A stretch of DNA of 34,623 nucleotides from a bacterium (GTDB lineage: Bacteria; Babelota; Babeliae; Babelales; Babelaceae), in contig JAKAUO010000047.1 in the NCBI GenBank assembly GCA_021827715.1, forward strand, positions 1 through 34,623, read 5' to 3'. The notes under the pieces were generated by a model that saw only the letters and a program-made list of their open reading frames with translations, was not told the DNA's origin and did not search any database. A program made the translations under genes and the position numbers. Shown one piece after another: positions 7,043 through 11,452 of this stretch (position 1 is the stretch's first letter; the number at the start of each line of letters is the position of its first letter).

Positions 7043-7957
7043 ATGAAAACTATTTTACTCTATTATAAATATACTGATATTCAGTACCCGGCACAGCTTA
7101 TTAAATGGCAAAAAGAGCTCTGTACACGCTTAGCGCTTAAGGGCCGCATTATTGTAGCTACTGAGGGCATCAATGGCACGGTTGCTGGAACCCAACAAGC
7201 CTGCCAAGAATATATGCACCATATGAATAATCATCCCCTGCTGAGTGGTATAGATTTTAAACAAAGTATGTGTGAGGGGGAACCATTTCCCCGATTGCGC
7301 ATTGTAGAAAAAGAAGAAATTACGCGCATGGGAAAAAGCCCTCAAGAGATTTCTTATAAAGATGCAGGAACGCATCTTTCCCCATCGCAAGCGCATGAAC
7401 TTATTGAAACCAATCAAGAATTAGTTATTCTTGATGGCCGAAATAAGTATGAATCTGCTATTGGTAGATTTAAAGGCGCTATCACTCCCGACATTGAAAA
7501 TTTTAGGGATTTTCCGGACTATATAGATAAAAACCAGCATCTTTTTAAGGATAAGCAGGTGCTTATGTATTGCACGGGTGGTATTCGTTGTGAACGAGCC
7601 TCGGCCTATTTAAAAAGCAAAGGAGTTGCCCAACAGGTGTACCAAATTACCGGCGGTATTGACCGGTATGCGCAAGCATATCCTGACGGATACTTTAGAG
7701 GCAAAAATTATGTTTTCGATGGTCGCATTGCCGTGCCAATTAATAATGACATTTTAAGTTCCTGCGCACTTTGCTCTGAAACTTCTGATGATTATCATAA
7801 TTGCGTCTATGCAGGTTGCAATAAGCAACTTATCATTTGTGCATCATGTGTCGCCCAAAACAATGCGACCTGTAGTCAAAGTTGTCGGGAAAAAATTTTA
7901 AATAACCCGGCAATGATGCGTAAAACTCCTCATAAAACAGCAACATGCATTCTCTAG
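7043..7957 (+). CDS. trhO: tRNA uridine(34) hydroxylase, rhodanese-like (TrhO/YceA)
   Basis: TrhO enzymes hydroxylate U34 of certain tRNAs with oxygen, the first step to 5-alkoxyuridine. The protein has the N-terminal acylphosphatase-like domain of the family (GINGTVAGT at 42-50) and a rhodanese domain whose active-site loop reads CTGGIRCE with C177. A Cys-rich C-terminal extension (about 257-295, several C-x2-C type pairs) follows, as in YceA proteins. In the rhodanese domain the usual LD-V/T-RN is LDGRN. Length of 304 residues is normal. It overlaps murB by 13 bp, so the two are cotranscribed. No Shine-Dalgarno precedes the start. Confidence 0.92.
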   Translation: MKTILLYYKYTDIQYPAQLIKWQKELCTRLALKGRIIVATEGINGTVAGTQQACQEYMHHMNNHPLLSGIDFKQSMCEGEPFPRLRIVEKEEITRMGKSPQEISYKDAGTHLSPSQAHELIETNQELVILDGRNKYESAIGRFKGAITPDIENFRDFPDYIDKNQHLFKDKQVLMYCTGGIRCERASAYLKSKGVAQQVYQITGGIDRYAQAYPDGYFRGKNYVFDGRIAVPINNDILSSCALCSETSDDYHNCVYAGCNKQLIICASCVAQNNATCSQSCREKILNNPAMMRKTPHKTATCIL

Positions 7958-8904
7958 CCATTATACAACACAACATTCCCTTAGCTGATAAAAATTGGTT
8001 CAAAACGGGTGGTACTGCGCAATGGTATGCTGACCCACGCACAGCCGCTGAGTTTGCTGATGCATTAGTCTATGCATATGCTCATAACCTACCCGTGACG
8101 GTACTTGGTGAAGGCGCCAATATACTCATCAGTGATGCTGGAATTTCAGGTCTGGTTATTCGCCCCGCGCTTAAAGATATATTTTTTGAAAAAATCACCG
8201 ACGCCATTCTTGTCACTGCGCAAGCTGGAGTGAGCATGTCCGATCTTATTGAACAATGTTTACACGAAGCCGCTCTGGGTCTTGAAGAATTTAGTGGAAT
8301 CCCGGGCACGGTAGGCGGTTCTGTTTTTATTAATATCCATTATTTTGAGTTCTTACTCAGTAACTTTCTTGTTGAAGCAACGGTAATTAATGCACAAACA
8401 GGGGACATTAAAAAGGTTAATCATGATTGGCTCCATTTCGGTTACAATTACTCAACCTTGCATGAAAAAGAATATTATTTGTTCGATGCAACATTTCGTT
8501 TAAAAAGGGCAGAAAGTGATCTTGAAGTTGCGTATGCTCGTGGTAGAAGAAAAGAGATTATTCGACATCGCACGGCACGCTACCCGAATGCACGAACCTG
8601 TGGAAGTTTTTTTAGGAACTTTTTCCCTGAAGAGGTCACGCTTGAAAGCCAAGGGAAAAAATTGATCTATGTTGCTTATTATCTTGATAAAATTGGAGTT
8701 AAAGGGGCTCTTTCTTGCGGAGGGGCAACCGTTTCATATCAACATGCCAACATGTTAGTAAACACGGGGACAGCCACAAGCGCCGATATTATTACCCTTG
8801 CGCGGACCATGCAGCAAAAGGTATACGATGCATATGGCATTATTCCCCAGCCTGAATGCCGTCTACTTGGTTTTTCTGATTATCCGTTATTAATTAAAAA
8901 GTAA
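7945..8904 (+). CDS. murB: UDP-N-acetylenolpyruvoylglucosamine reductase
   Basis: MurB reduces the enolpyruvyl group of UDP-GlcNAc-enolpyruvate to form UDP-MurNAc, an early cytoplasmic step of peptidoglycan synthesis, using FAD and NADPH. Seen: the FAD-binding LGEGANIL (54-61), GIPGTVGGS (118-126), the catalytic Ser in CGSFFRN (S221), and the C-terminal acid in QPECRLLG (E304). After GTVGG the usual MNAGAYG loop is replaced by a segment reading FINIHYFEFLLS (128-139), which marks a divergent subtype. Length is 319 residues. The start lies inside trhO, so expression is probably coupled. Confidence 0.93.
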   Translation: MHSLAIIQHNIPLADKNWFKTGGTAQWYADPRTAAEFADALVYAYAHNLPVTVLGEGANILISDAGISGLVIRPALKDIFFEKITDAILVTAQAGVSMSDLIEQCLHEAALGLEEFSGIPGTVGGSVFINIHYFEFLLSNFLVEATVINAQTGDIKKVNHDWLHFGYNYSTLHEKEYYLFDATFRLKRAESDLEVAYARGRRKEIIRHRTARYPNARTCGSFFRNFFPEEVTLESQGKKLIYVAYYLDKIGVKGALSCGGATVSYQHANMLVNTGTATSADIITLARTMQQKVYDAYGIIPQPECRLLGFSDYPLLIKK

Positions 8905-9163: not shown

Positions 9164-10570
9164 ATGAAAAAATTATTGAGTTTAAGTATGGTACTATTAC
9201 TAAAAGTATCACTTGAAAATTTTAGTATTTCTTTGCCAGAAGGATTTTGCATTGCAACAGAGATTGCAGAAAGCAAAAGTTGCAAAAGCCGTCAGGTTGA
9301 ATTCAACTCATCAATACCCGTTTTGCTCATCATTATTCATGGAACTTTTTCAAAAGCTGATTCACTCTTAGATGCTATAGTATTTAATAATGATACTATC
9401 CCTGCAGGATTTTTTAGCAATAATCACTATAACGCAACGCAACCTATTAGGTTAAGTTTTGAATGGAGCGGGGAAAATAATGATAACGCTCGAATAACAG
9501 GGGGAAAAAATTTAGCTCAAGGACTTAATGATATAATGCACCAATGCACACAACAAAATGTTCAGCCTGCCACCATTATTCTTGCTCATAGCCATGGCGG
9601 CAATGTAGTAGCCGTTGCCAGCAATAGGGTGAATAAGCCTATAGATTATGCAATTTTTTTAGCAACTCCTGTTTTACGGTATGATCATAATAAAAAAAGG
9701 GGCGATGAAACAGACCTTTATTTACCGCAAAAAATTAATAATCTTTTCCTTTTTTATTCTACGCTTGATATGGTGCAAACTTCAGGAGCATTCTTGAATG
9801 ATTTTAAACGGCGTTATGGTCCACTACCCGGCATAAGCTTGTACAATATAGCTTTGTTAATAAATGGTCAAGAACCGGGACATTCATTATATACACAACT
9901 TATCAACGATCATATCTTAGAATTATGCGTAAAAATTAAACACACTTATACCAAAAACAGAAACTTGGTTGCTCATATTGCACCACAAAATCAAATTGTT
10001 GATAAAATTATCGCTATAAAAAAATATGAACCTGAAGCAACCAATCCTTTTACCGGTATATCTACCGATAGTCTTTGGCCCAATTGGGAAAATTTTTCCT
10101 ATTCAGCAAGTGAAGTAGACGAAGACAAAGCAAGCGATGACGCACGGATGCTCTTTAATAATTTTTATAAATTTGAGTTTACTGATACCATGCCTTTTAT
10201 CGATAGATCAATTAAAGCGCTTCAAATGGAAGTATGTACTCGTGCTGTCGGCAAAATGGGAGCCACATTAGCTCTTTTACCCAAAGAACAAAAAGATTCC
10301 ATTACACAAACCTGTTGTCAATTTGATACATTCAAAACAGAACATCCAAATGCAAGCGCAGCAGTGCAATGCGCAAAAAGAGATACTCTCCCGAACAGAT
10401 CGCTCTCGTCCTCTGAAAATCAAACATTTTGTATGAATGTGGTTGGTGTACCCGGAAGATATCTTTCTTTATTGCCCACCGCGCAACGGGCCGATCTTTC
10501 AAAACGCTGCTGTTCACCTTCATTTAAAAATCGTCATCCAAAAGCCGCCGGCGCTTTAGGCTGTCAATAA
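9164..10570 (+). CDS. Exported alpha/beta hydrolase-like protein with two C-terminal Cys repeats
   Basis: An N-terminal signal peptide (about 1-22) is followed by an alpha/beta-hydrolase-like core. A beta strand leads into IIIHGTF (57-62, oxyanion region), and the nucleophile elbow is AHSHGGN with S143 (G-x-S-x-G variant with Ala first). D202 and H240 are plausible acid and histidine partners. This suggests a lipase or esterase acting outside the cytoplasm. The substrate is unknown. The C terminus carries two copies of a module of about 45 residues with the pattern C-x25-CC-x16/17-C (C358, C384-385, C403; then C423, C449-450, C467) sharing LLP and HP motifs. The 3' end overlaps the convergent amidase gene by 15 bp. 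Confidence 0.75.
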   Translation: MKKLLSLSMVLLLKVSLENFSISLPEGFCIATEIAESKSCKSRQVEFNSSIPVLLIIIHGTFSKADSLLDAIVFNNDTIPAGFFSNNHYNATQPIRLSFEWSGENNDNARITGGKNLAQGLNDIMHQCTQQNVQPATIILAHSHGGNVVAVASNRVNKPIDYAIFLATPVLRYDHNKKRGDETDLYLPQKINNLFLFYSTLDMVQTSGAFLNDFKRRYGPLPGISLYNIALLINGQEPGHSLYTQLINDHILELCVKIKHTYTKNRNLVAHIAPQNQIVDKIIAIKKYEPEATNPFTGISTDSLWPNWENFSYSASEVDEDKASDDARMLFNNFYKFEFTDTMPFIDRSIKALQMEVCTRAVGKMGATLALLPKEQKDSITQTCCQFDTFKTEHPNASAAVQCAKRDTLPNRSLSSSENQTFCMNVVGVPGRYLSLLPTAQRADLSKRCCSPSFKNRHPKAAGALGCQ

Positions 10571-11452
10571 GCAGCTACATTTTTTATTGATTAAGCAATG
10601 CTCACACAGCAACGCCTGTAATCGAGCAACAGTTTCTTTATCTGCTTTGCCATCAATTAAGGTTGGCCGATAGTGCATTTGAAATGCTCTAATAATATCT
10701 TCTTGAGTAACATCAGCATCTGGAAGCCTGTATCCCCAAATATGCAAGTGCTTGATAAGCCATTCTGTTCTTTTTGCTTCATCATTAAATACTGTACGAG
10801 ATAAGCAGCGTAAAGGATATAATTTACTGCTATCTGGCCAGACGCCGATACCATGCTCTGCCAATTTTTTCCAAGGAAATAACGGGCCTGGATCATTTTT
10901 TCTGCGCGGGGCTATATCTGAATGAGCAACCACATTACGAGGAAGTATCTTTTTATTACGCTGCAGAATTTTTTTGCATAAGGCAATAGTTGCTTCTATT
11001 TGACGGGCATCATAAGGATACCATTCTTTGTCAGATCCCTTTACCACTATACCCTGTGGTTGACGAGAATTTACCCGATAACCTAAATTAACATGCTCAA
11101 TGCCTATTGAATGAAAATTAATTTTTTTTTGCGTTGCATCAGGACCTTCAAGACCCTGCCAATAAGAAACGCCTGCATGTCGAGCTGCCTTTTCTTCTAA
11201 GACATGCTGGTAAACGTGGCCATCGGCGTCAATGGTGTAATGCGCACTTACCGGAGTTGGCACATCGGTTTTTGCAAAAATTTCTTGAACGCGCCATAAC
11301 GGCTGCGCCGTATAATGCAAAACCAAAATAGTGGGGGTTACTTCTTGCCCAGAATCAACATCAAAGCGCTCAAGAAAATTTGGCGATGGGTGCTGAATAA
11401 GAGTTGCCGCCAATGGCAACAATACAATAGTTCCTAAAATCTCTTTACGCAT
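10556..11452 (-). CDS. N-acetylmuramoyl-L-alanine amidase (AmiD type)
   Basis: This zinc amidase of the amidase_2 family cleaves the bond between MurNAc and the stem peptide in the periplasm. Seen: a hydrophobic N-terminal export signal (about 5-20), LHYTA with zinc ligand H46, HSIGIEH with probable catalytic E119, VVAHSDIAP with H177, and NDPGP with D187. A C-terminal peptidoglycan-binding type 1 domain follows (about 225-290), including an IIRAFQ helix. Order and length (298 residues) match E. coli AmiD, but no lipobox is evident. Likely role is turnover or recycling of peptidoglycan. The ribosome binding site is part of a run of eight G. Confidence 0.88.
   Translation of the reverse strand: MRKEILGTIVLLPLAATLIQHPSPNFLERFDVDSGQEVTPTILVLHYTAQPLWRVQEIFAKTDVPTPVSAHYTIDADGHVYQHVLEEKAARHAGVSYWQGLEGPDATQKKINFHSIGIEHVNLGYRVNSRQPQGIVVKGSDKEWYPYDARQIEATIALCKKILQRNKKILPRNVVAHSDIAPRRKNDPGPLFPWKKLAEHGIGVWPDSSKLYPLRCLSRTVFNDEAKRTEWLIKHLHIWGYRLPDADVTQEDIIRAFQMHYRPTLIDGKADKETVARLQALLCEHCLINKKCSCLLTA

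Follow-up and report, generated by a model that had tools for sequence, protein, structure and literature searches.

A tandem C-CC-C module ends a putative exported α/β hydrolase and recurs in small free proteins of one Babelota genus

Enzymes can carry accessory binding domains, such as carbohydrate- or surface-binding modules, that also exist as free stand-alone copies. Such domains are non-catalytic and found both in tandem and free, and in these respects they resemble the C-terminal tail described here, although no sequence or fold relation to it was found. Within the phylum Babelota, the closest described proteins are exported α/β hydrolases, kin of the Pfam families Hydrolase_4, DUF676, PGAP1 and Lipase_3, which have GTFS, AHSHGG, Asp and GxxPxHS elements in common with the core analysed below. 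The phylum, also called Dependentiae, consists of intracellular parasites of protists, according to two reports (PMC4378268, PMC6561590), and its members are reported to be strictly intracellular (PMC12172432). The first of these reports also describes large secreted proteins of Babela massiliensis in which a Cys-rich N-terminal domain is joined to a β-barrel and which are LDL-receptor-like (PMC4378268). These proteins are likewise exported, Cys-containing, lineage-specific and from the same phylum, but as described there (PMC4378268) they are set apart from the module reported here, which is small, helical and present as a C-terminal pair. A non-exhaustive literature search by broad words, including PMC6561590, PMC4378268 and PMC11196620, returned no description of the module.

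The window, a stretch of 34,623 nucleotides, is contig C9 of the 1.0 Mb genome G000. On its + strand, an ORF of 468 residues (9164–10570) combines a putative export signal, an α/β hydrolase core and tandem Cys modules. The putative Sec signal peptide (9164–9226, + strand, end approximate), placed by hydropathy, consists of MKK followed by a hydrophobic stretch with a peak Kyte-Doolittle value of 2.16 over 11 residues; by the same measure it is weaker than the signal peptides of the small free proteins discussed below, and export of the hydrolase is plausible. Upstream, murB (7945–8904; MurB_C match in Pfam) is separated from the ORF by 260 bp, while a peptidoglycan amidase gene (10556–11452, − strand; Amidase_2 match) meets the ORF tail to tail, the two genes overlapping by 15 bp (10556–10570). 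A terminator-like stem lies at this overlap (10559–10576). The gene downstream of the hydrolase in two other genomes of the genus, G001 and G002, differs from the amidase of the window, and in G001 a 203-residue lipoprotein-like gene (L057:7208–7819), absent from the window, lies between murB and the hydrolase.

Residues ~45–290 contain a GxSxG-like elbow with its Ser, as well as an Asp and a His in triad order. To count conservation we used 29 relatives from the 30 loci among the matches listed, one match per locus, leaving out the window itself (L018). The putative nucleophile, Ser143 in AHSHGG (9590–9592, + strand), is Ser in 25/29 relatives, Gly in 3/29 and a gap in 1/29, the single gap being the truncated G002 copy. 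The putative catalytic acid, Asp202 (9767–9769, + strand), is kept in 27/29, and the putative catalytic base, His240 in GQEPGHS (9881–9883, + strand), in 26/29. The α/β hydrolase core of the original prediction is thereby borne out at the level of sequence, with an intact triad; because most relatives keep all three positions, the window enzyme is probably active. The three loci with Gly aligned to the nucleophile Ser (L021 of G021, L026 of G017 and L028 of G016) all belong to another family, f2; these proteins are possibly catalytically dead, such loss being confined to f2.

Family assignments of the core stayed below cut-off. The window protein matched Hydrolase_4 and Abhydrolase_1, and the G001 ortholog (L057) matched Hydrolase_4, PGAP1, DUF676 and Lipase_3, all at sub-cut-off scores (for Hydrolase_4, 18.1 and 24.1 bits, respectively, against a cut-off of 27 bits). 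In a full-length structural model (3 sequences), core pLDDT was mostly <50, making it uninformative on the α/β fold. The core family itself is phylum-wide, with a relative at E ≤ 0.001 in 69/101 Babelota genomes. What distinguishes the window protein is its C-terminus: both of the relatives within the genus among the 29 examined have the tail (2/2), whereas 27/27 examined outside the genus, among the matches listed, are without a tandem Cys tail, extending 0–64 residues beyond the point aligned with residue 352 and harboring no CC. This distribution suggests that an exported hydrolase already in place acquired the tail within the genus, or that the tail was lost elsewhere.

The tail contains eight Cys residues, at positions 358, 384, 385, 403, 423, 449, 450 and 467 (first codon start 10235, last 10562). 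Module 1 (10211–10375, + strand) has the spacing C358-x25-C384-C385-x17-C403 and module 2 (10406–10567, + strand), which reaches the C-terminus, C423-x25-C449-C450-x16-C467; between them, a linker (10376–10405, + strand) is variable in sequence and length in alignments. The C-x25-CC-x16/17-C pair, predicted for residues 358–403 and 423–467, is exact. Local alignment of residues 341–408 with 409–468 gave a score of 95, a value reached by 0/5000 shuffles; the shuffle maxima were 43 (5000 shuffles) and 55 (5000 with Cys positions fixed). As the score lies beyond all shuffles, including those with the Cys positions held, the repeat is real and extends beyond the cysteine pattern. Chance or low-complexity resemblance of the two tail halves, with no real module behind it, is thus refuted by the shuffles and by five further proteins that carry the module, leaving it vanishingly improbable.

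An alignment of the 12 modules in the six proteins refined which features define the family. Cys1 and Cys4 are invariant (12/12), and the standard four-Cys C/CC/C pattern is present in 10/12, the two exceptions both belonging to one free G001 protein (G001:C1). In the G001 ortholog of the window hydrolase, 12/12 Cys residues of the latter have counterparts in alignments. An LLP-x-x-Q segment had been proposed as shared; as a family feature it did not survive, since in the alignment, read by eye, its Pro is present in 8/12 modules and Pro plus a Gln three residues on in 3/12. The proposed HP fared better in part, its Pro being retained in 11/12 modules but its His in only 9/12.

Beyond the hydrolase, a search with the tail revealed a second protein in G000 (on contig G000:C45). 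A tandem profile run on 101 phylum genomes produced convincing matches in three, all from one genus (G000, G001 and G002), which are also the three carriers among 16 genomes of the family Babelaceae. The profile search that the original prediction had called for, run with a single module, recovered 12 modules in six proteins in the same number of genomes (3/101), always as tandem pairs; five of these proteins are additional to the window hydrolase and three lack an enzyme. Proteins with a single module or with three or more, which the prediction had also suggested looking for, were found in none of the 101 phylum genomes. The pair is carried by one hydrolase each in G000, G001 and G002, the G002 copy being cut at its 5′ side by a contig edge, and by three free proteins of ~155 residues (G000:C45, G001:C3 and G001:C1), so that free copies are present in 2/3 genus genomes. 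The presence of the module in three proteins without an enzyme points to an autonomous domain. Modules of equal position are ~26–48% identical between species.

The single-module profile also gave weak matches in 10 genomes outside the genus (E 4.6e-4 to 0.099). In the six of ten that were examined (L011, L088, L090, L092, L095 and L062), no C-CC-C module lay in an open frame, and the best match, G079:C28, covers 25 columns and a 21-residue frame containing a stop. The tandem-profile matches outside the genus (6 genomes, E 0.011–0.081) were judged by their frames to be chance, with L011 and a different L062 match read individually. The phages and plasmids searched contained no match and the viral contigs searched no relative. 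A pattern scan of genome contigs, made with the hydrolase alignment and reaching beyond the phylum, returned at least two loci, both known genus members, and the closest named relative among the matches listed was a metagenome-assembled 'Candidatus Babeliaceae bacterium' (JAIETV010000022.1). Confinement of the module to one genus is a result within the phylum (101 genomes).

Comparison with known families yielded nothing significant in Pfam, NCBIfam, PHROGs or PDB sequences, and the impression that the module was new is upheld in that it scored above cut-off in no library searched. The nearest approach was Pfam DUF5948 (PF19373), matched by one of five tandem units at 15.8 bits against a cut-off of 23.7 (E 0.016). 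This match is sub-cut-off, involves 1/5 members and straddles module and linker, and we treated it as chance; a search of the three genus genomes for the DUF5948 family returned 0/3, even at E ≤ 10. Within the libraries and phylum genomes searched, the module is apparently a real, undescribed and genus-restricted domain.

AlphaFold modelling of a single module (six sequences) gave a mean pLDDT of 87.4 and four helices (2–22, 25–35, 39–44 and 46–51), with Cys1 in helix 1, the CC pair ending helix 2 and Cys4 after helix 4. Mean pLDDT for five single-module models was 87, 86, 80, 64 and 63, the last two being poor; module 2 in the full-length model shows the same helical pattern, with pLDDT of ~78–81 at its end. 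One module is thus predicted to be a small helical bundle. Foldseek returned 27 PDB matches for the single-module model with a best E of 3.9, and a fold search against viral models had a best E of 3.4. A second look with VIA-align gave a best Z of 3.1, to part of CRM1 (HEAT repeats), which we read as a common helical arrangement.

The G000 free protein has 157 residues, a signal-peptide-like start and two modules, and its closest sequence match is the G001:C3 free protein (41% identity). Its gene is intact and adjoins mutS, as does the G001:C1 free gene (L006:1345–1836); given this common neighbour, the two may be positional orthologs. In G001:C1, however, the cysteines deviate, module 1 having lost one Cys of the CC pair and module 2 being CxxC-like, and the ATG-start frame that begins just after a good AGGAG is interrupted by a TAA seven codons from its start, within the signal-peptide region, the listed ORF starting at a downstream TTG. 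The early TAA indicates that the gene is probably decayed, or else that the assembly is in error. The third free gene, G001:C3, lies beside two thioredoxin-reductase-like genes. None of the free genes is adjacent to the hydrolase gene. At two of the loci, G000:C45 (L054:5375–6873) and G001:C3 (L055:5353–6772), the free gene lies divergently to a series of genes for small proteins that carry signal peptides. One small protein per series contains a GGCC motif (SGGCCL and TGGCCL), with no Pfam match at E ≤ 0.1.

When the deviant G001:C1 protein is left out of the tree, a single branch (87/89; 88% of 200 bootstraps), not starred by the tree tool, splits the five first modules from the five second modules. 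When it is included the first/second split vanishes and 2 changes are needed. The four free modules are not grouped together, and holding them together was not rejected at 0.05 (AU p 0.061). The separation of first and second modules suggests that both travelled together from protein to protein, and the simplest reading of the sequences is one duplication followed by distribution of the pair.

Disulfides are suggested by cysteines that are even in number and invariant in proteins that are exported, and such a set is found throughout the family, the exceptions being the G001:C1 modules. We infer that the module is exported, forms disulfides and binds. Searches of the three genus genomes for the DsbB, VKOR and Thioredoxin_4 (DsbA-like) families, the usual means of oxidising exported cysteines, returned 0/3, which counts against the disulfide reading. 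These genomes do contain exported proteins of thioredoxin fold that bear CxxC and a hydrophobic N-terminus (L079, L080, L084 and L087), which could act as alternative oxidants. They also encode a membrane-anchored thioredoxin-reductase/thioredoxin fusion (L081, L083 and L085). This fusion, with its N-terminal hydrophobic segment, is present in 3/3 genus genomes, at G001:C3 (L055:2087–4534), G000:C43 (L083) and G002:C18 (L081), and beside it G001 encodes another thioredoxin-reductase-like protein, whose start resembles a signal peptide. NADPH-dependent enzymes would be odd outside the cytoplasm, unless they act in the host.

That the tail also occurs by itself in secreted proteins favours its being a unit in its own right, and units of this sort usually bind or anchor; by this analogy, the tail would do the same. 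We therefore propose, with a confidence that stands about midway, that the tail is a genus-specific, cysteine-stapled, non-catalytic pair of binding or anchoring domains. The last ~115 residues would comprise two tandem copies of a small, autonomous helical domain, in which a long helix bearing Cys1 is followed by a second helix ending in CC, two short helices and the final Cys. After export, two disulfides from the CC pair would most likely tie both helix 1 and the C-terminal end to helix 2. Duplication would have come first, and the resulting two-domain unit would then have been distributed to an exported serine hydrolase and to small secreted proteins that stand alone. Its most likely function would be non-catalytic binding or anchoring to the bacterial surface or a host molecule, which would hold the hydrolase on its target, and the free proteins would use or occupy the same ligand as the hydrolase tail. 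Direct fusion to the C-terminus of the core in 3/3 genus genomes and free copies in 2/3 is also the layout expected of an inhibitor or regulator, and the tail might instead regulate or stabilise the enzyme as a lid, folding aid or cis inhibitor, with the free proteins acting in trans on the hydrolase or similar enzymes. We consider this unlikely, as relatives of the core elsewhere in the phylum (27 examined, among the matches listed) manage without a tail and the free genes lie away from that of the hydrolase.

The cysteines themselves permit another reading, in which the C-CC-C cluster binds metal or is redox-active, as in a thiol relay, and does not form structural disulfides. Vicinal cysteines are generally known from metal and redox sites, and both the failure to find DsbB, VKOR or Thioredoxin_4 in the three genus genomes and the thioredoxin-reductase-like neighbours of G001:C3 would fit; however, a nearby conserved His is replaced in 3/12 modules and the G000 free copy, beside mutS, is without such neighbours, and we regard this role as very unlikely. 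A fast-evolving, lineage-specific secreted effector domain that acts on the protist host, the hydrolase being one carrier, appears distinctly unlikely. Restriction to one genus (3/101 phylum genomes), occurrence in small secreted proteins, the low identity of same-position modules between species and, according to PMC4378268 and PMC6561590, the life of the phylum as intracellular protist parasites all favour it, but delivery to the host is hypothetical, many exported ORFans may act in the cell's own envelope, and an effector role overlaps binding or anchoring rather than excluding it. A bolder reading, which we hold as tentative and somewhat doubtful, is that an undescribed ~50-residue, C-CC-C-stapled helical family was invented in one Babelota genus, spread as an obligatory pair and targets the hydrolase and the free proteins to one protist-host ligand.

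The reach of these findings is modest, covering one genus. Should the tail serve in targeting, it would offer a compact handle on the targets of exported hydrolases in uncultured intracellular parasites, and the free two-module protein, ~130 residues after signal removal, would be usable as bait. The family also offers a neat, small-scale example of a domain confined to one lineage that would have passed, as a pair, between an enzyme and secreted proteins that stand alone.
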